A stretch of DNA of 25,628 bases from a virus: positions 1 through 25,628 of IMG/VR virus record IMGVR_UViG_3300031621_000033; one strand, 5' to 3'. This document shows positions 1 through 25,628 of this stretch, one piece after another. How positions within the stretch are numbered: the first letter of the stretch is position 1; each line of letters starts with the position of its first letter. The notes under the pieces are model-generated. The model had not been told where the DNA came from and did no database searches. It saw nothing but the letters and a program-made list of their open reading frames with translations. Position numbers and translations under genes: made by a program.

Positions 1-3000
1 TCGCCTATATCGTCATTAATACCTTGTAGCTGATAAGCACCATCTAAAACAAAATTTACTTCAGTAAATTGTGTGTATCCTGTTTGATACCAATCTATGT
101 AATCCCAAAACAATGCAACATCGTATGCTTGACTTGCTATTCTTTGCCAAAGTCTTGAAGTACTATCTCTTTCGTATAATGCCCATTTTCCTAAAATAGT
201 TTCGTCATTTTTTACTAACGCTGTGTATTTTCTAATTGTAATAATGTCATTTGCTACGTAACCTTTTCCGCCATTAAGAACTGTAACATTTGTAATTACA
301 CCTAGATTGTTTATTGTAAATTCTAATTCTGCTCCCGTACCTGTGCCTGAAATACTATATGTAGGTGCAACTAGATATCCACGTCCTGGATTAATAACAT
401 CAACTCTAATTATACTGCCGTCTGTTATAACCAATGTCAAAGTTGCTTGTGTAGCTTTTGCAACTCCTATAAATGCAAGGTCAGCTACAGTATCTACTGA
501 TGTGTCAAATTGTCTACTAACTGCACTAGGTTGAGGATCTGATGCTTTTATTCTTGTTAGGTCTTTGTCGTCAATAATTAAGTTTTCTTTTAAGACTCCG
601 TTAACTCTTTCTATAACTTGCTTTAGTGCTTCTGCGTTGTTAATAAACCAACTTTGTCTAGGTGTGTTTAGTATACCATACTTTTCTTTTGGACTTAATC
701 CCGGAGCGGGTACCTGTTTACCTTGTTGGTCATATCCTACTAAGCTATCAATCCACTTACGCTCAATATCTCTGTTAGGAATACTTGTTGATAATCCGTC
801 AGTAACAATTTGATACTGGTTGTGTATATTAATGTTCTGGTTATCAATTGTCCAATATTGTATACTAACTGCAATATCTTTGTTTTCTAGTAAGCTATCA
901 CAGTTATATATTGTAAAACTATCAGGCGAAATAAGAGCTGCAAATTTATATCCCTGTCCTTTTGGATCTCTAATTAAACTTGCTACATCAAATGCACTTA
1001 ATGTCCTAAATTCAACATCAGGTGTAGTACGTTTATCTTTTACCCAGAAATAATACTTTGTGGTTAAACTACCACTAATGCTATCATATGTTTGTCTTGA
1101 TGAATATACAGTATCGCCATAAAGGCTAGTACCGTCTATGCCCTGGTCTTGTGCTTCTTCTGTGTTACTTAGGCTATTCCATTTGCTAGGTAATACACTA
1201 GATTCTACCCATTCGTAAACATCAATTGTGTTGCCTTGAAATAAAGTGCTCCAGTTGTTTGCAGAAAATATTACATCTGATTGATATGCATTCAAATATT
1301 TTGCATTTGTTAAATTCCACCAAAGCTCACCAACTTGTTCTGGTCCCCAACTTGCTGTTGGCATAACAGTTACATTAGATCCACCAAGTGTGTAATATGC
1401 AGGATCATAATAAGTTTTATAAGTTAAGTTTTGTTCAGCTGGGCCTGCAACTTTTCCTTGTACAGGATCAATATAATCTAAGTATGTAATTAATTGGTTA
1501 GATTTAATATTATATAAAATTGCACGTTTAATTTTGTTGATATCAACAGTGTCTTTAGGCAACCTCAAGTTTTCCCAAACATTTTTTCCGTCTGGTATTC
1601 TAAAGTCAATAACACTACCTGTATATACTGCATTTACACTTGTGTCTGGTAACCCAATATATACATGATTGCCTTTTAACTTAAAGTTATCACCAAAATT
1701 GTTTACACTACTAGTACTATCACTTTGACTTGATTGGTATTGTAATTGTTGTGCATACAACAGTCCGTCATTAATAACTTCGTATACAAACACAGAACCT
1801 TGTTGTTCGTAGTATTTTTTGTACGTAGTAAATTCGTTGTCAAAGGTAGTTGCGTTTGGATTTTCTTGGCTTGTTTGGTCTAACACATAGCCTGCATCTG
1901 TTTTAGAAAACTTATCAAATGTTGTGTTTGTCCAATTGTCGCCATTTTTACTGTTAACAATTAATCTACTGCCATCGAAATCAATCTTACTACCAAAAAA
2001 CTGTGAAGTTTTATTGCTAGGACTCATTAGTGTTTGTAGATATACAAACGTACCATTTACTTGTTTGTATACATAAACTTTACCCTGGTTGTTTTTATTT
2101 GTATCGTCTGATGGTGTTGATACTGCAATTAATTTGCCGTCGTTACTTATTGCTATACTATCACCGAATGATTCTGTCCCGCTAGGTGCATCAATCTGTT
2201 GCGAACGCTGATATTGTCCGTTAAGTATTCTATAAACTACAACTAAATTAGGTTTATTATTTCCATATTTTGCATTTACAATTAATATTTCGCCATCAGG
2301 TGTAAGATCAAAACTATTTGCAAAATCGTAAAGAGATCCTTGATCTAAAACTGTGCTTATATCGTTACTGCTGTCTGATACTATTGCTATTCCAGTATCG
2401 TTAGGAACATATCCTACATAGTCTATTAAATCGTCTGTGCTATCCCATTCTAACGTATTAAATGTGCCAGCTGTTATGTTTGTTACAGCATTATAGAGTT
2501 TGTTTTCTAAAGTAACTATATCTCCGATAAAGTAATTAGATGATGCACTAAATACACCTTTGAATTTTTTATTTTTTGCGTATTCCCAGTTATACGTAAT
2601 GCCGCTTTCGACTCCGCTTTTTAAGAAATATATTTTACCAGCATCTGAAACTGTACTACCTGCTGGAGCACTTACATATCCTCTGTAAACATTGTTAGCA
2701 TTTTTTGAAATCTCTACCTTTGTTCCTAGATAATTGTTGTCTTGTCTTTCAGGTCCAACATAACTGCCTAAACTAATGTAGTTTCCGGCATTGTTTTGTT
2801 GATACACATAATATATGCCTTCATTTGTAAATGGTGTTCCAACACTGCCGCCTGATGCCGTAGGAACTTTGTATACTTCGGTCCAATCAAGGTTATCTGA
2901 ACTAGGAGTATTTGCTCCTCTTGCAACACCATTAATTGTAGTTTGTTTGTAAATCCAGTACTCAAAATTACTGCTTGGTGTTAGGTTAGCAAAATCGCCT

Positions 3001-6000
3001 GTTAATGCATCTGCAACTTCAGTAGCTCCTAATTGAGAAACTGTTCTAAAGTCGCCTGCTGGAGGAGTTATATTTGCACCTGTATCTACAACAAACAATT
3101 TGCCTATGCCAGCTGCAACATTGCCGAGACTTACACGTTGTATTTGTCCCATAACACGCGGAATAGTATATATTCCAACTCTACCATAGTTGTCTGGATT
3201 AGGTCCTGGCCCATACGGTAAAAATTCTATTTCTGCATTGTTACCAAATTGATTACCTTTACTCCAATTACCAGATACATTTTTTACAAATATAGTTACT
3301 TCATTTAAACTTCTTTGATAAAAAGCAACTTCGGCTGTTGCACTAGTGGATCTATCACGGACTGTTTGTCCAACAATAGGCTCAAAAGGTAAACCGTTTA
3401 AACTTTTAGTATTTCTATAAGATATATATCCGTCCCATATATCATCAATAGTATGCTCTTTGTTTACTGCTGAAAAACTTAAACCAATTGTACTAGGATC
3501 ATCTAATGCATTTATAACTGGTAATACACTTAATTTAACACCTAAATTACCTGTAGCACTAAATGTTATAAAATTTACTGTATCAAATGATCCTGTAATG
3601 GTATTAATTTTTACTACTGTACTATTTGTTGTAGCTTCTACTACAACCGCAGTGGCTCCTGTTACTTGTTGAGTAATTATTTCGCCTTTACCTAACGAAA
3701 CTGCTGTGTCGAAAGTAGTTGTTGTTACTGTATCAGGTAAGTTGTTTAAGTATAATCTAAAATTATCACTTGCACTAGAAGTATCACTTAGTACCTTAGG
3801 TACTCTAACAACAAATTTAGAACTAATAACTGGATCTGATGTTCCCAGCGGTCCTGGTGTTCCTGTAAAACTAAGAGTTTGTATGTAACTGTTTATAACA
3901 CTTTCACTATCTTGTACATTTGTTTTGTAATCTAAACTTTGGTAATAATATCCGTCTAGTGTACTATCAGTAGCAACATCTGTAATTGACACAAAATCTT
4001 TATATACTAGGCCTCTTCCTGAATCTGAATTAGTATTACCAACCGCATACGGATTACTTGATTGAATAAACCAATATCCGCCCCATGAACTAGATGTTGT
4101 AATTGTTTCATTAGGACCAATACGTTGATATTCACCAACAAAATCATTTCCATCAATAAACAAACTATTTGCTGTTGGAAATAATCCATTAACAGCATTA
4201 ACATATATTGTTAATTGAGCGGATTCATTGTGCGTGTAAACTACTGTACCAATTGCTCCTTGTGTAGTAACCTTATCTCCAATAGCAGGAATATTATTAG
4301 ATGCATCAACATAAAGTATTGCATCTATTTTTTTAGTAATAGTATGTTCAGACTCTAGATATGATTTTGAGATATATGGTACAGTTCCATCAAATGGTGA
4401 TCTGTCTACAAGATTAAGTTGGGTTTGGTTAGCGTTTGCTAAACTATTCCATCTTAAATATATTTGATCTCCAACACCCGATCCGTCAAACATAGATTTA
4501 GGAGCTCTGAGTAAGAAGTGATCAGTTGTAATATTTTTGAAAGGATAGTCACCTGTAAGTATTACTGGTATTTCTTCAGCGGTTTGTGAATAATTATTAA
4601 GTGCGTAGTTTATTTGTGCAACACTATCAAAACTGCTAAATGTAATATTTGACACAGCACCTAAAATAGCTTCGTCAGCTTGCCATAAACTATTATTTAA
4701 ACGTACTATGTCGCCTGCTGCATAGTTTGTAGTTGTGTTAAAACCATTTTTAAAATTAGTTTTTACATTAGATGCATACGGAGCTCCAACAATAATATAT
4801 TTTGCATCTTCGCTCATCGATACACTATAACCAAACGTTTGTCCAGCACTAGCAATATTTTCATCAGGTTCTAAAACTTGATACAATGTATAATTTAAAG
4901 AATTGCTTGCTCTATTGTATATATAAACCTGTCCGTCACCTTTGTTTGGTGCTCCTACAGCAAGTTTGACGTTTCTACTATCAACTGCAATAGCAGTACC
5001 AAAGTTGTTTTCAGTTCCAGTTTCAGTATTTGATAATTCTTGTTGAACAGAAAATTTGTTTTTGTTTTGTAATACTCGCCATTTACCGTTGCCGTCATTG
5101 TCAATCCATAACTTTTCGTCAGTAGCAATTTCTTGTTCAGCAAGTGTGTTTGCCGCTGTAAGATTAGGTACTCTCACAGGAATAAATGCACTTATTCTAC
5201 CTTCACATTCATCAACTGTATTAATTGTACTTGTAGATTCAAAAACAATCTTGTTTAATGCAACGGATTTAACTTTAAAAAATCCTTCAATAGGAGCAAG
5301 TGTTTGCGTTAGTGTTTGAGTACTATCAAATGCACCCGGTGCATATGTTTTTATTAATACATTATATAATCCTAAAATATCGCCAGTATTAATATCTAAC
5401 GGAGAAGCATTTACAGTAACAGTAAATTCATTTGAACCTGTTTCAACTTTCTCTATCTTGTAGTCTTTTTGTACATGTTGTAAAACAGACCAATCTTCTT
5501 TTAGATTTCCTACCCATACATAGTCTTGATTGTCAATGTCACTAAATGATTTAGTTAAGATATCATTGTAAGTGCCAACTACTGTATTAACATCCTCTGG
5601 ATTTACATAGCCAGAATCTTTAGTATAGCCTTTTGAAATATATTTTGCAGGAAAAGGAGAGTGATCATAGTCCTTGCTTTTCAAGTAAGTTTCGTAGTCT
5701 TTTATTCTATATACTAAATCAGTTTCTAGTCCAGTACCTGTATTAGTAAGTAAAATAGGCTGAGGATCACTTCTAAATTGTTTTTCATCTAGTAAATATT
5801 CAACTTCTTCAAAACCTTCTGATGCTCCATACTGTCCGTCTTTTACTGCCCATTCTTCAAAGAAGTCTAAACTTTCTTGATCAGCACTTGCTAAAGCATC
5901 AAATAGTTTTGTTAAAGAATTTTTAGATCCTTTATCTAATATAAACCCTTGATAAAACTTATACTGGCTTACATCATCATTTATTATGTTTTCTAAATAA

Positions 6001-9000
6001 GTACGTTTTTGATACCCAATCAAATGCTGTGCTAAACGTTGTTGCTCAGTATCAAAGTTGTCGCTATCTAAGTCATAGAAATCACTAAACTGATTTATTT
6101 TATAATCAAAGTTTGTTAACAATCCTGGCGTAGGTTTTTTATCTAATCTATTCCAGTTTGCTGCTTCAAAAAGTAATGTTCCAGAAATTTTCTTATCTGC
6201 ACTATAATAAAATTCTTTATGTTTTACAAGGTCGCCAATAGTATAATCTTTCCAGGCTTCCCATTCAACTGCAATAGCGTTATCAAATATAAATCCTGGA
6301 ATATTTAAACTACCATTCCAGTTATCTGTTCTATATCCTAAAACTTTAATTCTTTCTTGTCTATAACCCGGAGCAGGATCATAGATTACATCATTAAATA
6401 CTGTCTTGTTATCAATAAGCAATACATGTTCTTTTTGAACTAGCGGGAATCTTACTGCAAAAATACCATCTGCAGAATTTACAACACGGACTGTACATTC
6501 ATTTTCTATACCTTTTGATATACGAATAAACTTGTTGTCTAATTTTTTTCCGTCGCCTTTTAGAATACTGTAACCAAAAAATGTATCGTATATATTATCT
6601 ACAATACTATAGTCAGTTATTAGTTTTAATTTTTGTGCTCCAGGACTTAGTGTAATGACAGTACCTGCTGCCCAATTTTGTGTAGTCCAAAACATAAACT
6701 GTTTAGAAGTTGTTGCCCAGTTTGCAACTTCATTTGAATCTGGTAATAGTTCGTCAAATACAAATCCAAGATCATTTAAATATTTTCCATAGCCGTATAA
6801 AAAATCTACTACATCTTGTAATGTAGAAAGTTTATCACCATAATTTAATACACTAGTTGTGAATTCAAACACACGCGGCATAGTTGCTATTGCACCACCA
6901 ACTAACGGTACTTCGGGAATACTAACAAAATTACTTGAATCAAAATTTGCTGAGCTAGTATGTGTTTTTATTACTCTATAAAATGCGTCTGATGCTTTAA
7001 CAATCTGTCCTACAGTATAGATTTTTTCGCTATCAAAAGTTACATATGATTCTGATATTCCACCTACATTGATTACCGGATCGTTTGCTTGTGCAATTCT
7101 TTTGTAATATTTAAAGCTAGGTTCAAAATTATCATAACCTGTAATTACATACCCACCTGCTTGTTTTTCAGCAATGACTCCGCTATAACTTATTGTCTTT
7201 ATAGGACTGCTTGTGTTTAAAATTAGATCATAATTTTCATTAGGTACAAAAACATTACCTTCGTTAGTTGGAGATCTTGAATCTAATATTAATCTAAATT
7301 TCTTCTTGTCTGAATACCCAGCAATTTTACTACCAATTTGATTACGTATGTTTACTAAATTTTTCTTGTATGAAATATACGACTCTATTGTGTTGCTTGT
7401 CATGTAGTTAGCTACATAGTTTACAAGACCACTAGTATATATTTGTGTTGTATCTTCTATAGTATTAGGAAATACAATGTTATCTAATTTGATAGGTATA
7501 TGAGAATCACCGTATATAATTTGTCCTGCTAAATTTCTTGTTTGTCTAGATCTATCAAATCCAACTGAAAATATATTGTTAGGTTGATTTTGTACCCAAG
7601 CAGTAATTAAACTAAATGGATATTCAGAACTTCTCCTCCAAGCTGACTCAACCGGGCCTCCGTCTCCAAATGTCCAATTATTTGTAATAGTAGATGAATC
7701 AAAATTATTAATTAATCCTGCTGCGTTTGGATCAAGGAGATTTCCTGAATCATCTACGGGTATATTTTGTTGTAGATTAGGCCTAATATAATTTTTATTA
7801 ACAACTATATTCTTTTTAGGTTCTCTAATAATACCTTTTTCTAAATCTTGCCATAATACTTTATTATTACGTGTGTATGGAGCTGGTCCGTATTGTGTTT
7901 CCCACCAAGTAGGTTTAATACTAAATCCTAACATTTCCCAAGGATTAGTATGCGGTCGGTCAGTGTCAAATGCATACATAAACGCTTGACGCCAATGCCC
8001 TGGCATATTCTCTGGTACATTATTATATATTGCACTTGAATAATTAAATGTAAATGCATTATTTCTATCAAAATAACTGTTATTAACATAATCTCCGTCT
8101 ACTAACTGATTCCACTGAACAAAATCTGCTGTCATTGAATAGTTAAGTTCTTGTCTAGTAAATGTTGTTTTTCTATTTAGGCCTGGTACAAATTTATGAA
8201 TATCTAAAAGGGTAACATCGTAACTTATTTTAATATTGTTATAAATTCTTAATTCTAATTCAAGTAATAACTTATCTCGAAAATCATTAAATCCAACAAA
8301 CTTACTTCCGTCGTGTCCTTCAATAACTGTCACTGGAACAATTGGAGTATTGTCAGTATAAATTTTTGGTTCAAAAGCAGGATACAACCCTAACTTTGTA
8401 GGTGTTGGAGGCATAAAACTAGCATTAGTACTATCATATTCGTAAACATCAATTACATCATTAACTAATTTAGTAGCAGTAATGTCAACAAAACCTTCAG
8501 AATTAAAAATATAATCTTTACTATGAGTAAGTTGAGTACCATTTAAATAAACCTGAACAGCTTTTCTACTTAAAGTTGACATCGAAAACGGTGTACTTAA
8601 AGCAAAATATCTTTCACTTGTATCTAAAACAGTATGCGAAGTTTTTATTGATCCGCCTTGCGGCACCATATCACTAAAATAAAACGGCATACTAGACGCT
8701 TTATCCTTATTCATTTCTTTAAGAATTTGGTCTACATGTTCTTTTACCGGTCCTTCAAATCCTAGAGTATTAGCTGTGGATAAAAACTGTCTTTTATATT
8801 TTCCGTACTCTCTTCTAGAATGTCTAATAGATTGTACTATGTTAGCACCCTTGTCAACTAAATGATAGGTTGATAAATTTATAGGACCGCTGTGTTTTAA
8901 AAACTTTTTGCCGTATAAAGTTATATTTCCCATATCTCTTAAATTACTCGGACCTGGAAATATTCCTACAAAATTATTTACTTCTTCAACTATAGTAGAA

Positions 9001-11534
9001 ACATGGTCATTAACTTCACCCAATGTAAATTCTGTTACATTTTCATTTAATGGATTTCTCTCTAAGTTTTTAGCAATTTCGTAATAACCATTTGCATTTT
9101 TATTATATTTGCTTTTTGTTTTTAAAACAATTACATCGTCAATACTTAGACTATTTGTAAACGTGATGTAAGAAACACCGTTTGCATCTGCATTTACAGT
9201 ATAATCTGTATTAACAAATTGTAACTTGTTATTTAAATATACTCTTAACCATAAATCATTAATGTAATCTACGTTATCGTAAACATCAATAAAGAAATTG
9301 TCAGTTGTGTTGTCGTATATATATTGTCTAATTACTGGTTGGCTACTTAGTTTGCTAGTTTTTAACCATCCATTAACATAACCAAACGTATTAATGTCTG
9401 TATATTTTCTTAAAAATCCTGTATCAGATTTTGTTGTATATAATACTGTGCCTATTTGGTATGTAAATTCATCACTTGTTAGATCAAAGTTAAAAGTTAT
9501 ATCACCAGTATTTGTAATATTTCTATAAGATAAAGGAAATCCTAATTCAGTATCATTAATTCCTGTTCCAACTTTATACGAAAATATTTTATTTCCTGAA
9601 AAAGTTGTAGAATTAAATTTTGTAGTATCACTAAAAGCGTTTCCGTTTTTATCAAACATGTCAAACAACGGCTGTTGATTAATAGCAGTTTTTTGTTGAC
9701 TTTGCTTCCAAACTGTCCCGTTATAACTATAAAACTTACCGCCATTAGTAGTTCCAAATTTTACAAAAACATTTTCATTTAATACTGGAGTTGTGTCTGT
9801 TTCTTCTACAAGAGATACTTGTGTATTATTCTTAAATTTTATAAAACTAACTTTATATATTTTACCGCTTACTAGTTTATCAGTGTCAGCAGTAAACAAA
9901 ACACGCATGCCGTTTGTTAAATTAACACCGTCAACATTGTAACCTGCACTACCTTCAATAGTTGAGAATATGTCAGTTGTAAAAGTATCAACTAAGTCAA
10001 CGTCTATTTTTGATTTTGTACCAAAATTAAATAATTTTAAACCTTCTTGGAATTCAATAATAGGTCGCTTTGCGCGAGAGTCTTCTAAGAGTGTTGAAGG
10101 ATTGTCACTAAATTTATTACTAGTTTCAATTACTGATTTATGGAACCATCTGTTATATCTACTCCACAAGTTTCCATCTGGACTCGCACGATTAATAACA
10201 ATGTAATCTTTCTTGCTTGGATATCCAAGTGCATTACTAAATGGATAAAAATCAAATCCTTGGGCATCAAAAGGTACTACTATGTCATCAGTAAAAGTTC
10301 CGCTTACAGTTAAGTCTTCTTGTTTAATTATTTGTATGCGATCGCCAACACCTTCTACATACCATTGGCCTGTTTTGTATTTTGCAGGAGTAACTTCGCC
10401 TGCAAATTCTACTTTCATTCCATTTGATAGTGCATACCCGTTACTAGTAGTATATGTTTGTTTACCTAAAATTTCTGCTTCAACATCTATTGCTGTGTTT
10501 TCTTCAATGTCAAAGATTTGCATATATCCAGATACGTTAGGATCATTTTTTGAAATATAAAATAGCGAATCTGGTGCAGTATCAGGAATAGTAAATTCTA
10601 TAATTCCTTTTTCAATATAAACTGTTGTAATTGTATTGCCGTCTTCGTCGGTTTTGCTTACACCTGTGCTATATATCAACGATGTATTTGTTGCATCTCC
10701 AAATTGTACACTAGCTAATGCTTCTGCTTGAGATACAGGATCTACAATAAAGCCACCGGCATCGTATGCTGTACCGTCTTGGTCGTATAACACAACATCA
10801 AAAACTCCTGAACTACGAACACCTTCTGTAGTTTCTACAATAACTGCTTCACCCGGTGTGAAACTTTTCTTTGTAGCAAATGCTAATGGGTGGTTAGGAG
10901 TATCTATACTAAATCTGTACTTTTGTCCTCTATATAACTTTATAGTTGGATTGTTTGTTAATCCATCAGGAGAAAATACATAAGTTACATTATCAACGTT
11001 CTGTCCTAATCCAACTGAATATGTACTTACTATATCTTTTGTTTGACCTGTAATAGTAAGCAAGTCTGGTCCATTGGGTAACCAATAATATTCTCTATAG
11101 TTTGCAAGTTTATCCCAATCAACATGCGGATTCCAAGCATAATCTTCTTGAGCATTTAACCTACTATGGTTGACTGTTGAACCGCCTAAGTTACCAACTG
11201 TGTTGATGTAATCATTGTAGTCTTTGTAGTATGTAACATTACCTAGATCATCTTTTATAACTGAAGCTGGTTCAAATTGATAGTTTTCTCTATCAGTTGT
11301 TACTGCACCTATATAATTATCCTTAGCAGTAAATGCTTTACTAACTTTACGTCCAAGATATCCATTTAACTTTTCGGCAACACCTGGTTGAATAAGTTGG
11401 TCTAATGTACTTGATAAGAATTTTTTGTTATGCGGTGTTCTAAAATACCGAGGTAAATGATCTTCACTTTTTCTTCTAATACTGTCGTTACCGCCTGGAA
11501 GTGGTGATTCAGATTGATCGTTATCGTAAGACAT
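1..11534 (-). CDS. Giant virion structural protein, baseplate gp7-position (partial, C-terminus beyond window)
   Basis: ATG at 11534-11532 overlaps the gp6 stop by one base (TAATG). The frame then stays open to base 3, giving 3,844 complete codons (over 400 kDa) with no stop in the window. Spot translations across the region give sensible protein throughout. The N-terminus (about residues 26-57) contains HLPRYFRTPHNKKF and LDQLIQPGVAEKLNGYLG. Residues about 1185-1225 contain TDRPHTNPWEMLGF and TWWETQYGPAPYT. Residues about 1838-1880 contain YQKRTYLENIINDDVSQYKF. I recognise these as typical of the very large structural protein that follows gp6 in marine T4-like phages, often labelled gp7 or baseplate wedge. 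The C-terminal third has FG-GAP-like repeats, listed separately. Its place in the gp48-53-5-25-6 series argues for a wedge or peripheral baseplate/fibre role. T4 gp7 is only about 1,030 residues, so the gp7 name is positional and inferred; the structural role is much surer. Confidence 0.85.
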   Translation of the reverse strand, partial: MSYDNDQSESPLPGGNDSIRRKSEDHLPRYFRTPHNKKFLSSTLDQLIQPGVAEKLNGYLGRKVSKAFTAKDNYIGAVTTDRENYQFEPASVIKDDLGNVTYYKDYNDYINTVGNLGGSTVNHSRLNAQEDYAWNPHVDWDKLANYREYYWLPNGPDLLTITGQTKDIVSTYSVGLGQNVDNVTYVFSPDGLTNNPTIKLYRGQKYRFSIDTPNHPLAFATKKSFTPGEAVIVETTEGVRSSGVFDVVLYDQDGTAYDAGGFIVDPVSQAEALASVQFGDATNTSLIYSTGVSKTDEDGNTITTVYIEKGIIEFTIPDTAPDSLFYISKNDPNVSGYMQIFDIEENTAIDVEAEILGKQTYTTSNGYALSNGMKVEFAGEVTPAKYKTGQWYVEGVGDRIQIIKQEDLTVSGTFTDDIVVPFDAQGFDFYPFSNALGYPSKKDYIVINRASPDGNLWSRYNRWFHKSVIETSNKFSDNPSTLLEDSRAKRPIIEFQEGLKLFNFGTKSKIDVDLVDTFTTDIFSTIEGSAGYNVDGVNLTNGMRVLFTADTDKLVSGKIYKVSFIKFKNNTQVSLVEETDTTPVLNENVFVKFGTTNGGKFYSYNGTVWKQSQQKTAINQQPLFDMFDKNGNAFSDTTKFNSTTFSGNKIFSYKVGTGINDTELGFPLSYRNITNTGDITFNFDLTSDEFTYQIGTVLYTTKSDTGFLRKYTDINTFGYVNGWLKTSKLSSQPVIRQYIYDNTTDNFFIDVYDNVDYINDLWLRVYLNNKLQFVNTDYTVNADANGVSYITFTNSLSIDDVIVLKTKSKYNKNANGYYEIAKNLERNPLNENVTEFTLGEVNDHVSTIVEEVNNFVGIFPGPSNLRDMGNITLYGKKFLKHSGPINLSTYHLVDKGANIVQSIRHSRREYGKYKRQFLSTANTLGFEGPVKEHVDQILKEMNKDKASSMPFYFSDMVPQGGSIKTSHTVLDTSERYFALSTPFSMSTLSRKAVQVYLNGTQLTHSKDYIFNSEGFVDITATKLVNDVIDVYEYDSTNASFMPPTPTKLGLYPAFEPKIYTDNTPIVPVTVIEGHDGSKFVGFNDFRDKLLLELELRIYNNIKISYDVTLLDIHKFVPGLNRKTTFTRQELNYSMTADFVQWNQLVDGDYVNNSYFDRNNAFTFNYSSAIYNNVPENMPGHWRQAFMYAFDTDRPHTNPWEMLGFSIKPTWWETQYGPAPYTRNNKVLWQDLEKGIIREPKKNIVVNKNYIRPNLQQNIPVDDSGNLLDPNAAGLINNFDSSTITNNWTFGDGGPVESAWRRSSEYPFSLITAWVQNQPNNIFSVGFDRSRQTRNLAGQIIYGDSHIPIKLDNIVFPNTIEDTTQIYTSGLVNYVANYMTSNTIESYISYKKNLVNIRNQIGSKIAGYSDKKKFRLILDSRSPTNEGNVFVPNENYDLILNTSSPIKTISYSGVIAEKQAGGYVITGYDNFEPSFKYYKRIAQANDPVINVGGISESYVTFDSEKIYTVGQIVKASDAFYRVIKTHTSSANFDSSNFVSIPEVPLVGGAIATMPRVFEFTTSVLNYGDKLSTLQDVVDFLYGYGKYLNDLGFVFDELLPDSNEVANWATTSKQFMFWTTQNWAAGTVITLSPGAQKLKLITDYSIVDNIYDTFFGYSILKGDGKKLDNKFIRISKGIENECTVRVVNSADGIFAVRFPLVQKEHVLLIDNKTVFNDVIYDPAPGYRQERIKVLGYRTDNWNGSLNIPGFIFDNAIAVEWEAWKDYTIGDLVKHKEFYYSADKKISGTLLFEAANWNRLDKKPTPGLLTNFDYKINQFSDFYDLDSDNFDTEQQRLAQHLIGYQKRTYLENIINDDVSQYKFYQGFILDKGSKNSLTKLFDALASADQESLDFFEEWAVKDGQYGASEGFEEVEYLLDEKQFRSDPQPILLTNTGTGLETDLVYRIKDYETYLKSKDYDHSPFPAKYISKGYTKDSGYVNPEDVNTVVGTYNDILTKSFSDIDNQDYVWVGNLKEDWSVLQHVQKDYKIEKVETGSNEFTVTVNASPLDINTGDILGLYNVLIKTYAPGAFDSTQTLTQTLAPIEGFFKVKSVALNKIVFESTSTINTVDECEGRISAFIPVRVPNLTAANTLAEQEIATDEKLWIDNDGNGKWRVLQNKNKFSVQQELSNTETGTENNFGTAIAVDSRNVKLAVGAPNKGDGQVYIYNRASNSLNYTLYQVLEPDENIASAGQTFGYSVSMSEDAKYIIVGAPYASNVKTNFKNGFNTTTNYAAGDIVRLNNSLWQADEAILGAVSNITFSSFDSVAQINYALNNYSQTAEEIPVILTGDYPFKNITTDHFLLRAPKSMFDGSGVGDQIYLRWNSLANANQTQLNLVDRSPFDGTVPYISKSYLESEHTITKKIDAILYVDASNNIPAIGDKVTTQGAIGTVVYTHNESAQLTIYVNAVNGLFPTANSLFIDGNDFVGEYQRIGPNETITTSSSWGGYWFIQSSNPYAVGNTNSDSGRGLVYKDFVSITDVATDSTLDGYYYQSLDYKTNVQDSESVINSYIQTLSFTGTPGPLGTSDPVISSKFVVRVPKVLSDTSSASDNFRLYLNNLPDTVTTTTFDTAVSLGKGEIITQQVTGATAVVVEATTNSTVVKINTITGSFDTVNFITFSATGNLGVKLSVLPVINALDDPSTIGLSFSAVNKEHTIDDIWDGYISYRNTKSLNGLPFEPIVGQTVRDRSTSATAEVAFYQRSLNEVTIFVKNVSGNWSKGNQFGNNAEIEFLPYGPGPNPDNYGRVGIYTIPRVMGQIQRVSLGNVAAGIGKLFVVDTGANITPPAGDFRTVSQLGATEVADALTGDFANLTPSSNFEYWIYKQTTINGVARGANTPSSDNLDWTEVYKVPTASGGSVGTPFTNEGIYYVYQQNNAGNYISLGSYVGPERQDNNYLGTKVEISKNANNVYRGYVSAPAGSTVSDAGKIYFLKSGVESGITYNWEYAKNKKFKGVFSASSNYFIGDIVTLENKLYNAVTNITAGTFNTLEWDSTDDLIDYVGYVPNDTGIAIVSDSSNDISTVLDQGSLYDFANSFDLTPDGEILIVNAKYGNNKPNLVVVYRILNGQYQRSQQIDAPSGTESFGDSIAISNDGKLIAVSTPSDDTNKNNQGKVYVYKQVNGTFVYLQTLMSPSNKTSQFFGSKIDFDGSRLIVNSKNGDNWTNTTFDKFSKTDAGYVLDQTSQENPNATTFDNEFTTYKKYYEQQGSVFVYEVINDGLLYAQQLQYQSSQSDSTSSVNNFGDNFKLKGNHVYIGLPDTSVNAVYTGSVIDFRIPDGKNVWENLRLPKDTVDINKIKRAILYNIKSNQLITYLDYIDPVQGKVAGPAEQNLTYKTYYDPAYYTLGGSNVTVMPTASWGPEQVGELWWNLTNAKYLNAYQSDVIFSANNWSTLFQGNTIDVYEWVESSVLPSKWNSLSNTEEAQDQGIDGTSLYGDTVYSSRQTYDSISGSLTTKYYFWVKDKRTTPDVEFRTLSAFDVASLIRDPKGQGYKFAALISPDSFTIYNCDSLLENKDIAVSIQYWTIDNQNINIHNQYQIVTDGLSTSIPNRDIERKWIDSLVGYDQQGKQVPAPGLSPKEKYGILNTPRQSWFINNAEALKQVIERVNGVLKENLIIDDKDLTRIKASDPQPSAVSRQFDTSVDTVADLAFIGVAKATQATLTLVITDGSIIRVDVINPGRGYLVAPTYSISGTGTGAELEFTINNLGVITNVTVLNGGKGYVANDIITIRKYTALVKNDETILGKWALYERDSTSRLWQRIASQAYDVALFWDYIDWYQTGYTQFTEVNFVLDGAYQLQGINDDIG
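243..395 (-). repeat. Glycine-rich paired GxGY motifs in the giant protein
   Basis: Residues about 3713-3763 of the giant protein contain NPGRGYLVAPTYSISGTG, then an alternating hydrophobic stretch, then NGGKGYVANDIITI. Two GxGY turns some 35 residues apart, each followed by beta-prone sequence, suggest two copies of a short beta unit. Similar glycine-rich units are common in tail-fibre and baseplate proteins of marine myoviruses. The function is not known from the sequence. Confidence 0.5.
1640..5012 (-). other. Seven FG-GAP-like repeats (probable split beta-propeller) in the giant protein
   Basis: Seven segments of the giant protein share an FG...(I/V)...D(G/x)...(V/I)xxP pattern, usually followed by G-x-V-Y-(I/V)-Y. 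Approximate residues and cores are: 2175 NNFGTAIAVD/LAVGAP/GQVYIY; 2233 FGYSVSMSEDAKYIIVGAP; 2933 YLGTKVEISK/YVSAPAG/GKIYFL; 3069 FANSFDLTPDGEILIVNAK; 3118 FGDSIAISNDGKLIAVSTP/GKVYVYK; 3179 FGSKIDFDGSRLIVNSKNG/GSVFVYE; 3274 FGDNFKLKGNHVYIGLP/GSVIDFR. This resembles integrin-alpha-type FG-GAP blades, and seven is the usual blade number. About 680 residues separate repeats 2 and 3. The pattern is seen in the translation; the propeller fold is inferred. Confidence 0.6.
3230..4295 (-). repeat. Three diverged beta modules inserted between propeller repeats 2 and 3
   Basis: The insertion in the giant protein holds three segments with a shared layout: G-x-x-(V/I)-x-x-x-x-x-x-A-x-x-x-V, then a V/I-rich strand pair, then (V/I)xG-x-(F/W)-x-x-x-N. 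They lie near residues 2415-2460 (IPAIGDKVTTQGAIGTVVY), 2610-2660 (GKGEIITQQVTGATAVVV) and 2717-2768 (FEPIVGQTVRDRSTSATAEV). The likeness is in pattern rather than identity. They read like small beta-sandwich or fibre-type units. Confidence 0.4.
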
Positions 11535-20718: not shown

Positions 20719-21540
20719 ATGAGAAAAGTAAATTACTTAAACAACAAAGATATACTAAAAGAGATACACAAATCAAAAGCTACTTTTTGTAGTTATGTGG
20801 ATACAGACTATAATCAGTATGATGTGATTTTACCTAGTGTTGAAAAAATTAACAGACTAACTATTGCCGAAGCAAAGCGTAATAAAGCAAAACGTCTTAG
20901 TCAACAAGCATTTGAAGCAGCTAAACTAGCTGGTAAAAAAATTAAACAAGCAGAATGCGAAGTTGATTACAAAAAGATAACAAAAGAAGAACTTATTTTT
21001 AGAATTATGACGTACGAGCATGTTCCAGAAGAACCAGGTCGTAAGAAGAATCCAAAGACTATAGCAGACACAAAAGTTAAGTTAAACTTTCCACCTTTTC
21101 AACATTATAAATTTGATGAAAATGACGAAATTACTTGTATAGGAAAAAGTCATTGGTCAGGCGGTATGGAAAATGGTAACTTTGACCTAAAAGGCGGTAA
21201 CGCTACAAATAAACTTGCAAACATGTGGTTAAAACTAGTTGATCGTTATGCTACTCGAGGCAATGTACGTGGATACACATACAATGACGAAATGAAGGGT
21301 CAAGCAATACTACAACTTTCGCAGATTGGTTTACAGTTTGATGAATCTAAATCTGATAATCCTTTTGCTTACTATACTGCTGCTGTTACTAATAGTTTTG
21401 TACGTGTTATTAATATAGAAAAACGTAATCAAAACATTAGAGATGATATTTTAGAAATGAATCATTTAAATCCTAGCTATACTAGACAGCATTTGGGCGA
21501 ATGGGAAGCTGCAATGAAAAGAGAGTCCGAAAAAAAGTAG
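20719..21540 (+). CDS. 55: Late-transcription sigma factor gp55
   Basis: This 273-residue protein replaces the host sigma on RNA polymerase and reads the late -10 box. The N-terminus YLNNKDILKEI parallels YVNNKELLQAI of T4 gp55. Residues about 160-240 form the sigma-region-2-like core (LANMWLKLVDRYATRGNVRG, then GYTYNDEMKGQAILQLSQIG, then FDESKSDNPFAYYTAAVTNS, FVRVINIEKR), matching the T4 block NPHAYITQACFNAFVQRI. T4 gp55 is 185 residues. The extra length lies mainly between residues 20 and 150, with a Lys/Ala-rich helical stretch (50-80) and FPPFQHYKF. The T4 C-terminal clamp-binding tail (SLDFLYE) is not visible; this protein ends in a charged EWEAAMKRESEKK. GGAG lies five bases before the ATG. 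It sits between its host-type promoter and the gp47/46 promoter. Confidence 0.85.
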   Translation: MRKVNYLNNKDILKEIHKSKATFCSYVDTDYNQYDVILPSVEKINRLTIAEAKRNKAKRLSQQAFEAAKLAGKKIKQAECEVDYKKITKEELIFRIMTYEHVPEEPGRKKNPKTIADTKVKLNFPPFQHYKFDENDEITCIGKSHWSGGMENGNFDLKGGNATNKLANMWLKLVDRYATRGNVRGYTYNDEMKGQAILQLSQIGLQFDESKSDNPFAYYTAAVTNSFVRVINIEKRNQNIRDDILEMNHLNPSYTRQHLGEWEAAMKRESEKK

Positions 21541-21600: not shown

Positions 21601-22611
21601 TTGTTTAAGAAAGCAGCAGTGTTTACCGATATCCATCTAGGATTAAAAGGTAATAGCAAAATTCACAACGAAGACTGTGAAGAATTTATAGATTGGTATA
21701 TTAAGCAGGCACAAGCTAACGGTTGTGAAACTGGTATATTCTGTGGTGACTGGCATCATAATAGGAATAGTCTTAATCTTACAACTATGGATAGTACTAT
21801 ACGATGTATGGAAAAACTAGGTAAAGCATTTAAAAAGTTTTACTTTTTTGATGGCAACCACGACTTGTACTATAAAGATAAACGTGATGTAAATTCGACT
21901 GCATTTGCTAAACATATTCCTGGTATAACATTTATTGATAAAATTTACGAAGAAGATGATGTAGCATTAGTTCCCTGGTTAGTTGGCGAAGAATGGAAAA
22001 AGATAAAAAATATAAAAGCAAAATATTTATTTGGTCATTTTGAACTTCCTAGTTTTTACATGAATGCTATGGTACAAATGCCAGACACAGGTGAACTACA
22101 AGCATCACATTTTTTAAATCAAGAATATGTGTTTAGCGGTCATTTTCATAAACGTCAACAGCAAGGAAAAGTACACTATATAGGCAATGCATTTCCTCAC
22201 AACTATGCAGATGCATGGGATGACGAACGTGGTATGATGATACTTGACCGCGAAAACAACAAAGAGCCTGAATATATTAATTGGGATAATTGTCCCAAGT
22301 ATAGAACTATAGGTCTTAAAAACTTGTTAGAAGATACTGATGCAATAATTAAACCTAAAATGTACTTGCGTGTTATTATAGATGTACCAATTTCATTCGA
22401 AGAGGCAACATTTATAAAAGAGACATTTGTTAATCAATATAAGTGCAGAGAAATATCACTTATACCTCAAAAACAAATGGAAGAAATTACAACAGATGTT
22501 GACATACAACATTTTGAAAGTGTAGATCAAATTGTTGCAGGAGAAATTGCAGCACTAGACACTGAAAACTTCAACAAAAAGATGCTATTGGACATTTATA
22601 ACGAACTATGA
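21601..22611 (+). CDS. 47: Recombination endonuclease subunit gp47 (SbcD/Mre11-like)
   Basis: This 336-residue protein is the nuclease half of the gp46/47 complex, which resects DNA ends for recombination-dependent replication and helps degrade host DNA. The calcineurin-like phosphoesterase motifs appear in order: FTDIHLG (Asp10, His12), GDWHHN (Asp50, His52/53), DGNHD (Asn86, His87), a His in LFGHFELP (His146) and SGHFHKR (His181, His183). All metal ligands are present. T4 gp47 is 339 residues, so the length is normal. The start codon is TTG, with AAGGA seven bases upstream and a perfect sigma-70 promoter before it. Its TGA overlaps the gp46 ATG (ATGA), fitting subunits made in fixed ratio. 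Confidence 0.95.
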   Translation: MFKKAAVFTDIHLGLKGNSKIHNEDCEEFIDWYIKQAQANGCETGIFCGDWHHNRNSLNLTTMDSTIRCMEKLGKAFKKFYFFDGNHDLYYKDKRDVNSTAFAKHIPGITFIDKIYEEDDVALVPWLVGEEWKKIKNIKAKYLFGHFELPSFYMNAMVQMPDTGELQASHFLNQEYVFSGHFHKRQQQGKVHYIGNAFPHNYADAWDDERGMMILDRENNKEPEYINWDNCPKYRTIGLKNLLEDTDAIIKPKMYLRVIIDVPISFEEATFIKETFVNQYKCREISLIPQKQMEEITTDVDIQHFESVDQIVAGEIAALDTENFNKKMLLDIYNEL

Positions 22612-24380
22612 TACGTATTAAGGATTTAACGGTAAAGAATTTCATGAGTGTGGGTAATCAAACCCAGGCTGTAGATTTTAACAAAGAACAACTTACACTT
22701 GTACTTGGTGAAAACTTAGACCAGGGAGGTGACGACGCAGGATCTCGTAACGGTACTGGTAAAACTACAATTATTAACGCATTAAGTTATGCGTTATACG
22801 GACTAGCACTCACTAATATTAAAAGAAACAATTTAATTAACAAAACTAACAGCAAGGGTATGTTAGTTACACTGCATTTTGAAAAAGATGGTGTTGATTA
22901 TAGGATTGAACGCGGCCGTTCGCCTAATGTTCTTAAATTTTATGTAAATGATCAAGAACAAGAAATGACAGATGAGTCGCAAGGCGATAGCCGTAAGACT
23001 CAAGAATCTATTAATGTGTTGTTAGGTATGAGTCATGATATGTTTAAGCACATTGTTGCATTAAACACCTATACAGAACCTTTCTTAAGTATGCGTCAAA
23101 ATGACCAACGTGCAATTATTGAACAGTTATTAGGTATTACAATTCTATCTGAAAAGGCAGATAATCTAAAAGAACAGATTAAACAAACTAAAGATGCTAC
23201 TACTCAAGAAACATTAAAAATTGAAGCAATACAAACTGCTAATAGTAAAATTGAAAGTACTATTCAAAGTCTACAAGGAACACAACGAGCTTGGTTGTCT
23301 AAACAAAAAACAAATATTACTAAATTAGTACAAGCAATCGACGAATTAGAGCATTTAGACATTGATGTAGAGTTAGATTCGCATGAAAAACTGGCTAATT
23401 GGTCACAACACAATAATGCTATTATGGCTCTTAAAAAGGAATTAAGTACATTAGAACCTGCACTACAACGTGCTGGCAAGTCTGTTGCAAAGGCAACTAA
23501 AGATATCGTAGATTTAGATGATGCAACATGTTATACTTGTGGGCAAGAACTACATGCAGACAAAAAAGCAGAGATTGCAGAGCGTAAAACTAAAGAACTT
23601 GATGATGCTGTAGCGTATCAATCCGAGATTGATGTTAAAGTAAAAGACGTTATGAAAGCACTTGAGGAGATCGGTGATATCAACGGCAAGCCCACTACGT
23701 TTTATGAAACTGCTAAAGAAGCATACGATCATAGACAAAATGTTGATAGTTTAAAGCAGGCATTAACTGCAAAAGAAAACGAAACAGATCCGTATCAAGC
23801 ACAAATTGATGAGCTAAACAATACTGCTATGCAAGAACTTAATTGGTCAGCTATAAACGACCTAACTACGTTCAAAGAGCATCAAGAGTTTTTATTAAAA
23901 CTATTAACCAACAAAGATAGTTTTATTCGTAAGAAAATTATTGAACAAAATTTAGCATACTTAAACAATAGACTTACATATTATATTGTTAAATTAGGAT
24001 TGCCGCATCAAGTTGTTTTCCAAAATGACTTAGCTGTTGAAATTACACAACTAGGACAAGACTTAGACTTTGACAACTTGTCAAGAGGTGAGCGTAATAG
24101 ACTTATACTTGGTATGAGCTTTGCGTTTAGAGATGTTTGGGAAAGTTTGTATCAGAATATTAATTTATTATTCATTGATGAACTTATAGACAGTGGTATG
24201 GATACTGCTGGAGTTGAAGGCGCTCTAGGCGTACTAAAGAAAATGGGCAGAGAACGAAACAAAAATGTTTATCTTATCTCTCACAAAGATGAACTAGTAG
24301 GTCGTGTTAATCATGTTATGCGAGTTATAAAAGAAAACGGCTTTACAAGTTATGAAAATGATATAGAGATTATAGAATGA
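22608..24380 (+). CDS. 46: Recombination endonuclease subunit gp46 (SbcC/Rad50-like ATPase)
   Basis: This 590-residue SMC-type ATPase partners gp47. The Walker A motif RNGTGKTT is at residues 47-54. Charged coiled-coil arms run from about 180 to 300 and 315 to 420 on either side of a zinc-hook CYTCGQEL (Cys308, Cys311), the CxxC dimerisation hook of Rad50 proteins. The C-terminal half holds the ABC signature LSRGERNRLILG (about 491-502), Walker B LLFIDELID (about 520) and the switch His in YLISHKDEL. T4 gp46 is 560 residues, so it is full length. No strong ribosome site is seen, so it is probably translated by coupling through the 4-base overlap with gp47. Its stop overlaps hemC in the same way. 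Confidence 0.95.
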   Translation: MIRIKDLTVKNFMSVGNQTQAVDFNKEQLTLVLGENLDQGGDDAGSRNGTGKTTIINALSYALYGLALTNIKRNNLINKTNSKGMLVTLHFEKDGVDYRIERGRSPNVLKFYVNDQEQEMTDESQGDSRKTQESINVLLGMSHDMFKHIVALNTYTEPFLSMRQNDQRAIIEQLLGITILSEKADNLKEQIKQTKDATTQETLKIEAIQTANSKIESTIQSLQGTQRAWLSKQKTNITKLVQAIDELEHLDIDVELDSHEKLANWSQHNNAIMALKKELSTLEPALQRAGKSVAKATKDIVDLDDATCYTCGQELHADKKAEIAERKTKELDDAVAYQSEIDVKVKDVMKALEEIGDINGKPTTFYETAKEAYDHRQNVDSLKQALTAKENETDPYQAQIDELNNTAMQELNWSAINDLTTFKEHQEFLLKLLTNKDSFIRKKIIEQNLAYLNNRLTYYIVKLGLPHQVVFQNDLAVEITQLGQDLDFDNLSRGERNRLILGMSFAFRDVWESLYQNINLLFIDELIDSGMDTAGVEGALGVLKKMGRERNKNVYLISHKDELVGRVNHVMRVIKENGFTSYENDIEIIE

Positions 24381-25120
24381 AACTTAAAGTAGGTGTACGA
24401 GGAAGTAAATTAGCACTTGCATATGCTGATCGTGTGTGCAATGAACTAGCGTGTGATACAGAGATTATACCTATAAAGACACCTGGTGATTTAAATCCAG
24501 ATGTTCCTATTTACGAAATAGGCGGTAAAGGAGTATTCTGTAGTACTATTGAAACTGCTTTACTCAATGGTGAAATTGATGTTGCAGTACATAGTCTAAA
24601 AGATATGCCCGGCGAAGAACATCCTGATCTAGTAATATCAGCAATGTTAAAAAGAAATAGTCCTCATGATGTGTTAATTGGAAAGGTAAGTTACGGATTT
24701 ACTATTGGTACAAGCAGTCCTCGTCGTGAAGCACAACTAAAAGAAATGTATAGTAACATAGGTGTACAAATTAAACCTATTAGAGGAAATATAGATACTA
24801 GACTAGAAAAACTTGACAACGGCAATTATGATGCTATAATATTAGCTGAAGCTGGATTACAAGCATTAGATATTCGTCGTACATGGATAAGAGTACCTAT
24901 TATACCAGCAGTAGGACAAGGAATAATTGCATTGCAAACTAGAAAAGACGATGCTAACACTATTGAAATAGTCAAAAAAGCTAATCATTCTAACACCTTT
25001 GCACAAGCACAAGTTGAACGTGCATTTTTGAAAGGCATAGGCGGTGATTGTCATACAAAACTAGCGGCACATGCAACCGGCAGTAATCCTATTACACTTA
25101 AGGCAATGTATTATGGTTGA
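24377..25120 (+). CDS. hemC: Hydroxymethylbilane synthase (porphobilinogen deaminase), C-terminally short
   Basis: HemC joins four porphobilinogens into hydroxymethylbilane, the linear tetrapyrrole that leads to haem, chlorophyll and cobalamin. Family motifs are clear: VRGSKLALA (Arg8, Ser10), GGKGVF (49-54), DVAVHSLKDMP with catalytic Asp76 (E. coli Asp84), GTSSPRR (Arg116, Arg117), RGNIDTRLEKL (Arg136, Arg142), DAIILAEAGLQAL, PAVGQG, and GIGGDCHTKLAAHA, whose Cys225 matches the dipyrromethane-cofactor cysteine (E. coli Cys242). The protein has 247 residues against about 313 in E. coli; only 22 follow the cofactor cysteine instead of about 70, so most of domain 3 is missing. It overlaps gp46 by ATGA and the next gene by eight bases. 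I do not know it as a T4 core gene, so it looks like an acquired host-metabolism gene. Activity without domain 3 is uncertain. Confidence 0.93.
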   Translation: MKLKVGVRGSKLALAYADRVCNELACDTEIIPIKTPGDLNPDVPIYEIGGKGVFCSTIETALLNGEIDVAVHSLKDMPGEEHPDLVISAMLKRNSPHDVLIGKVSYGFTIGTSSPRREAQLKEMYSNIGVQIKPIRGNIDTRLEKLDNGNYDAIILAEAGLQALDIRRTWIRVPIIPAVGQGIIALQTRKDDANTIEIVKKANHSNTFAQAQVERAFLKGIGGDCHTKLAAHATGSNPITLKAMYYG

Positions 25121-25328
25121 CGATGATATACACGATCAGCTGACAAAAGCCTATATGGAATACTTCAAAGAGAATGACAAGTTTGAAGCAAGAAATAGTG
25201 TAAGGACACATACTGCTAGTCGAAAATGTCTTAGAGAAATACGTAGATTAGCAAAACTACGCATGGAAGAAATAAGAGAAAAACACGTAACAACTAGAAA
25301 AACCAAGACCAAAGGCAAAACCAAATAG
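25113..25328 (+). CDS. Small basic helical protein of unknown function
   Basis: This is a 71-residue protein starting at the ATG inside the last codons of hemC (8-base overlap), with AAGG nine bases upstream. A longer in-frame start at 25071 would sit deep inside hemC and lacks support. The first half is acidic and helical (VDDDIHDQLTKAYMEYFKEN). The second is strongly basic (ASRKCLREIRRLAKLRMEEI, then a Lys/Thr-rich tail, TRKTKTKGKTK). Small proteins with this Y-x-x-(Y/F)...(L)x(E/K)(I/L)xxLAKxRRxE layout are common in marine phages. A histone-like, nucleic-acid-binding role is a guess from charge alone. It has no Cys/His metal site or membrane segment. Confidence 0.75.
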   Translation: MVDDDIHDQLTKAYMEYFKENDKFEARNSVRTHTASRKCLREIRRLAKLRMEEIREKHVTTRKTKTKGKTK

Positions 25329-25345
25329 GTACACATATATACTGG

Positions 25346-25628
25346 ATGCAGTGGACTTATAATGGAAAAAAGATAACCAAAATACCAGACGAATACGAAG
25401 GATTTGTTTATCTCATTACTAATAAAACTACAGGCCAAAAATATATAGGTAAAAAACTAGCAAAATTTAAAACTACTAAGCCACCACTTAAAGGCAAGAA
25501 AAATAAACGTCGCGGAACTAAAGAAAGTGACTGGAGAGAATACTATGGCTCCAGTGATAGACTGAACGCAGACGTTGCAACACTAGGCGAAGATAAGTTT
25601 ACAAGAGAAATACTATACCTATGTAAAG
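25346..25628 (+). CDS. GIY-YIG-type nuclease (partial, cut by window end)
   Basis: There are 94 complete codons from ATG at 25346 to the window edge with no stop. The GIY-YIG signature is present as GFVYLI (residues 19-24) and, ten residues after the first Tyr, QKYIGKK (31-37). A basic stretch, KPPLKGKKNKRRGTKESDW, follows, then EYYGSSDRL and an EDKFTREILYLC segment, typical of the short phage GIY-YIG proteins that also occur outside introns. The family includes homing endonucleases (T4 SegA, I-TevI) and repair nucleases. The catalytic Arg and Glu cannot be assigned with confidence in the visible part. It starts 17 bases after the small basic gene with only a weak ribosome site (a TGG just before ATG). 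Its position at the edge of an accessory gene block would fit a free-standing homing-type gene, but this is inference. Confidence 0.8.
   Translation, partial: MQWTYNGKKITKIPDEYEGFVYLITNKTTGQKYIGKKLAKFKTTKPPLKGKKNKRRGTKESDWREYYGSSDRLNADVATLGEDKFTREILYLCK

Follow-up and report, generated by a model that had tools for sequence, protein, structure and literature searches.

Does a phage hydroxymethylbilane synthase (HemC) deprived of half of its third domain still function as an enzyme, or is it the remnant of a host gene? This question was raised by a viral DNA of 25,628 nt, the whole of which is called the window hereafter (virus record IMGVR_UViG_3300031621_000033, positions 1 to 25,628). The dependence of HemC on domain 3 and its ability to count to four pyrroles have usually been probed with damaging mutants. 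A natural and conserved short form, together with a full-length SAR11 sister that has lost the same near-universal residues, makes the question directly testable. Our sequence comparisons show that many marine phages carry a short, strongly conserved HemC, which is more likely a functional enzyme than a defective gene.

The hemC frame of the window (Table 1) matched Pfam family PF01379 at 2e-63 with 214 bits (cut-off 22.1) and the NCBIfam equivalog TIGR00212 with 260.6 bits (cut-off 164), and its product possessed the cofactor cysteine and the catalytic aspartate of the HemC family. The profile of domain 3, PF03900, scored 22.8 bits, under its cut-off of 26, with 36 of its 74 positions matched. 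Since a complete domain 3 is missing, the protein is a truncated variant and not a canonical member of the family. These results bear out an earlier note on this DNA, which had described a phage HemC with a shortened domain 3, linked to gp46 by an ATGA overlap and with only 22 residues after the cofactor cysteine (Cys225 in a protein of 247 residues).

Table 1. Features of the window at and around hemC (nucleotide positions of the window)
Feature	Position	Strand	Basis
gp55-like late sigma factor	20719..21540	+	
gp47 (SbcD-like subunit)	21601..22611	+	PHROG
gp46 (SbcC-like recombination endonuclease subunit), borders the insertion site upstream	22608..24380	+	PHROG
hemC (247-aa hydroxymethylbilane synthase without C-terminal half of domain 3)	24377..25120	+	ORF, profiles, model
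ATGA, overlap of gp46 stop and hemC start	24377..24380	+	
Tyr16 codon, aligned to E. coli Gln19	24422..24424	+	
Ala163 codon, aligned to E. coli Arg176	24863..24865	+	
Cys225 codon, where the dipyrromethane cofactor is predicted to attach (= E. coli Cys242)	25049..25051	+	
22 codons 3' of Cys225; modelled two-stranded hairpin (residues 229-234 and 240-245)	25052..25117	+	
Conserved 72-aa ORF, borders the insertion site downstream	25110..25328	+	
SegE-like GIY-YIG protein, cut by the window end	25346..25628	+	

Viral relatives were collected in three scans of virus contigs, each retaining at most 80 of up to 222 relatives. They comprised 68 distinct HemC proteins, one of which was a contig-edge fragment, leaving 67 full-span sequences. 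Sixty-six of these 67 were 245 to 252 aa long, and the cofactor cysteine was followed by 22 to 25 residues in viral HemCs versus 51 to 84 in 110 cellular ones. The survey of viral genomes proposed in the earlier note thus revealed a short form that is both widespread and monophyletic (virus clade 100/100). The sole length exception, L004:2104-2844, was interrupted at codon 180, where GGA is changed to the stop TGA; this may be a true null allele or an error of sequencing. Pairwise dN/dS values between the window gene and its near relatives (0.16, 0.077 and 0.073) indicated purifying selection, as had been argued from the retained motifs. Over the whole set, for which selection ratios are rough owing to near saturation of synonymous sites in distant pairs, pN/pS was 0.27-0.29 in the tail and 0.30 in the rest of the gene. 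Judged by these similar ratios, purifying selection acts on the tail no less strongly than on the remainder.

An AlphaFold model of the window HemC, based on an alignment of 18 viral and 36 cellular rows, reached a mean pLDDT of 93.3 and a pTM of 0.89, and superposed on solved HemCs with Z scores of 26-32 and rmsd values of 1.2-2.2 Å. Its last residue met E. coli residue 265 of 313. Since the superposition stops at this point, the third strand and the last helices of domain 3 are absent from the modelled fold, in which the helix preceding the cysteine and two strands of this domain are kept. In an earlier run with phage sequences only, residues 227-247 had remained under pLDDT 50; as the addition of cellular rows made the C-terminal hairpin confident, too shallow an alignment is the probable cause of that low score. 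Domains 1 and 2 of HemC have the periplasmic-binding-protein fold, and in a structural search those of the model matched solute-binding proteins at Z of about 10.

The fold of domains 1 and 2 is the same in viral HemC and in cellular HemC/PBGD (E. coli 1PDA, B. megaterium 4MLQ and human HMBS), and the cofactor cysteine, the catalytic aspartate and the cofactor-binding arginines are common to both. Unlike the cellular enzymes, the viral form has neither Arg176 nor Gln19, its domain 3 ends before the last strand and helices, and its loops are shorter. For known enzymes such a loss of domain 3 is not trivial, since Lys55 from the active-site loop of the E. coli protein contacts residues 305-306, within the part absent from the viral form (PMC3945110), and since human HMBS does not tolerate changes in the hinge preceding its last helix and is damaged by almost every stop variant (PMC9934555). 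A phage enzyme lacking an otherwise indispensable C-terminal part has been shown to be active in the case of the truncated peptide deformylase of phage Vp16 (PMC5591237), an unrelated enzyme that provides an analogy only.

Fifteen residues named in enzyme studies were retained in the window HemC (equivalents of R11, S13, K59, S81, K83, D84, T127, S128, S129, R131, R132, R149, R155, R232 and C242 in E. coli numbering). The statement of the earlier note that all recognised catalytic residues remain was nevertheless too broad: R176 and Q19 are replaced by Ala163 and Tyr16, respectively, so that six of the seven tested arginines (R11, R131, R132, R149, R155, R176 and R232) are kept and R176 is not. 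Its claim regarding the cofactor cysteine did hold, Cys225 being invariant in 67/67 viral HemCs, as were Asp76 and the cofactor-binding residues and arginines. In E. coli, R176H impairs chain elongation (PMC3945110). Position 19 was Gln in 112 of 113 aligned cellular HemCs, and Tyr in 67/67 viral and 20/20 SAR11 proteins. Position 176 was Arg in 112 of the 113, in none of the viral proteins and in 0/20 from SAR11; the single cellular exception at both positions was the SAR11 row L288.

The SAR11 set consisted of 20 HemCs; their genomes belong to a single order, measure about 1.0-1.5 Mb and yielded one HemC match each. All 20 displayed Tyr at position 19, Ser, Ala, Tyr or Phe at position 176, and a full-length domain 3. 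Because SAR11 HemC lacks both R176 and Q19 too, their absence does not exclude the viral protein from the HemC family; a loss of these residues as a viral invention was rejected for the same reason. The SAR11-type HemCs (L288 and L393-L411) were unlike nearly all other aligned cellular HemCs in having neither residue, and ten other genomes assigned to the same order keep Gln19 and have Arg (in one case Lys) at position 176. The 16S probe SAR11-441R, in the sequence that we take it to have, matched exactly in 9/9 tested SAR11-type genomes and was absent from seven other genomes; it did not match the two of the other same-order genomes that were probed.

Phylogenetic analysis, which the earlier note had recommended for establishing the origin of the gene, united viral and SAR11 HemCs in one clade (support 100/97). 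The SAR11 (Pelagibacterales) proteins are the sister group of the viral ones and, like them, have Tyr at 19 and no Arg at 176, but are full-length (302-307 aa, with 59-63 residues after the cysteine). The simplest explanation of the active-site substitutions is a common ancestry of viral and SAR11 HemCs, and on this tree the truncation falls on the viral stem. Since the changes at R176 and Q19 are shared and the tree joins the two groups, the phages probably acquired hemC from a SAR11-like host, and its shortening came later. Both donor and host are putative, because the viral group is sister to SAR11 and not nested within it, with a long stem (0.81). The hosts of these phages are probably some of the most abundant cells of the sea. 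For the accompanying genes described below, HemF of the viral module showed 48-54% identity to HemF from genomes of the SAR11 order and 47% to that of another alphaproteobacterium, and HemE showed about 30% identity to all proteins tested.

Analysis of loci fetched by gp46 similarity indicated that hemC was missing at this site in 69 of 76 cases, the usual order being gp46, the 72-aa ORF and segE. Less than 1 kb of sequence was available rightward in 27 of these 69 loci, and nearly all show the 72-aa ORF directly after gp46. This ORF had been considered as the missing half of domain 3, acting in trans or joined by a frameshift, and was discarded because of its position next to gp46 in relatives without hemC. 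The distance at the gp46-hemC junction was the same as in the window in 42 of 65 distinct loci possessing both genes. Parsimony on the gp46 tree required 14 changes in hemC presence, seven of them forced by well-supported branches. Given these changes, hemC is, as far as the tree tells, accessory cargo coming and going at one site. The earlier view of an enzyme sitting inside the recombination operon was correct as to adjacency with gp46; what it describes is a site of variable insertion rather than a functional tie to recombination. Features expected of a phage auxiliary metabolic gene were found: a location among phage genes, an accessory distribution in relatives and a low dN/dS. Other cargo between gp46 and segE included SufE (L330:4270-4674), a tryptophan-halogenase-like protein (L387:5989-7641), a 2OG-Fe(II) oxygenase (L382:3676-4308), NUMOD3/HNH (L392:3643-4404) and a TMEM65-like membrane protein (L356:5773-6048).

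HemE and HemF work further along the pathway to which HemC belongs. Among 76 distinct hemC loci, hemC stood alone after gp46 in 49, in the order hemE-hemC in nine, and in the order hemE-hemF-hemC in five, four of which were at gp46 (hemE and hemF were identified by Pfam and NCBIfam). Clusters of the last two kinds occurred at L337:5770-8275, L388:5770-7490 and L269:2242-4747. Neither hemB nor hemD was present on 24 hemC contigs, all of them fragments. AlaS exceeded its cut-off in four of 32 virus records searched, and all four carry hemC. One 52.7-kb contig (L464, L465; G007, IMGVR_UViG_3300025892_001683) combined the short hemC with alaS, URO-D, haem oxygenase and bilin reductase, as well as a GMP-reductase-type gene and CsgG; this contig (L113/G007) resembles Pelagibacter phages HTVC008M and Mosig.

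Auxiliary tetrapyrrole genes have been reported from aquatic T4-like phages, namely valaS, hemO and pcyA/X of marine and freshwater phages including Pelagibacter phage Mosig, and phage AlaS has been shown to be active (PMC11480375). Some short-hemC contigs also carry genes of this type; that report covers alaS, hemO and pcyA/X, and the word hemC is absent from its text. A porphobilinogen deaminase and a coproporphyrinogen oxidase were mentioned in one main-text sentence for the deep-sea pelagimyophage PMP-MAVG-4, in an account whose main text, as far as consulted, does not describe domain-3 loss, SAR11 ancestry, hemE or the insertion site (PMC7029224). HemC, HemE and HemF add the middle of the tetrapyrrole pathway to the parts under phage influence, which so far were its first step (AlaS) and the breakdown of haem.

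We favour, with a probability of roughly 0.7, the view that hemC encodes a working, miniaturised hydroxymethylbilane synthase that came from a SAR11-like bacterium, was trimmed, and boosts supply through the haem pathway during infection. The ancestral gene would have been acquired from a member or relative of the Pelagibacterales already in the SAR11 active-site form, without Gln19 and Arg176. About 48 C-terminal residues (the third strand and last helices of domain 3) and short loops would then have been lost, leaving the cofactor helix, the cofactor cysteine and the two-stranded hairpin. In the infected cell, the dipyrromethane cofactor would be loaded on Cys225, four porphobilinogens joined and hydroxymethylbilane released, a product that would be taken on towards haem by host HemD and then by HemE and HemF of the host or the phage. 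The benefit may lie in a supply of haem, or in some phages of bilin, that is kept up or raised; haem or bilin is a likelier direction of the pathway than cobalamin or chlorophyll. It is also conceivable, if rather unlikely, that the lost half of domain 3 has been replaced by a virus-specific interface, serving self-association or contact with a nearby enzyme, for example HemE or host HemD, with changed chain release or substrate channelling. Candidate residues for such an interface, nearly invariant in viral HemC, are Arg168, Gly235, Pro238, Tyr245 and Tyr246.

In the E. coli and human enzymes, chain elongation and release of the product have been linked to domain 3 and R176. The viral protein lacks both, so that an active enzyme yielding shorter or mis-sized pyrrole chains, or turning over very slowly, deserves consideration; the invariant viral Arg168, conserved neither in the cellular set nor in SAR11, points in the same direction. 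Such an altered product is nonetheless improbable, because SAR11 genomes, with their single HemC match, share these active-site changes and because hemC is accompanied by hemE and hemF, which act on normal tetrapyrrole products. The resemblance of domains 1 and 2 to solute-binding proteins could suggest a binder of porphobilinogen or of another ligand without normal turnover, for instance one holding or regulating the pathway. Solved HemCs are far better matches to the model, and a mere binder would not need the Asp76, Cys225 and cofactor-binding arginines found in every viral sequence, which makes this role quite improbable.

A decaying or accidentally acquired host gene would agree with the internal stop of L004 and with the patchy distribution on the gp46 tree, but is very hard to reconcile with 66 distinct proteins of fixed length that have their motifs unchanged and a low dN/dS, and was rejected. 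The notion of an assembly or sequencing error at the stop concealing a full-length frame is hardly credible: the same C-terminal end recurred in dozens of contigs and, across many metagenomes, in more than 60 distinct genes. Moreover, the stop lies within the conserved ORF that follows, so that the rest of domain 3 could not be accommodated.

No description of the short HemC form was found in the open-access literature. In the phage collection, the only HemC matches in named phages were at most 39% identical and resembled bacterial DNA in phage records, and no HemC was among the matches listed in a structural search of predicted viral proteins. A short cellular HemC, if one exists, would lower the novelty of the viral form. 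PRK01066, a 241-position NCBIfam HemC model, is presumably chlamydial; a literature search on this model as a precedent for a short HemC retrieved nothing.

Regarding the phage itself, gp46 and the baseplate protein of the window were closest to those of Sinorhizobium phage Phosso, the Pseudomonas PA5oct group and Agrobacterium Atu_ph07, all very large phages of the T4 superfamily. The window cannot be assigned to the pelagimyophages (HTVC008M-type), its closest cultured relatives being neither HTVC008M nor Mosig. Possible Fe-S genes were observed on other hemC-bearing contigs, namely a NifU-type domain identified with Pfam (L269:1289-1678) and two ORFs that on visual inspection look IscU-like and SufE-like (L465:2654-3034 and L281:6955-7347, respectively). 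Positions 3-11534 (-) of the window form one open frame of at least 3844 aa, which runs off the window and probably encodes a very large structural protein.
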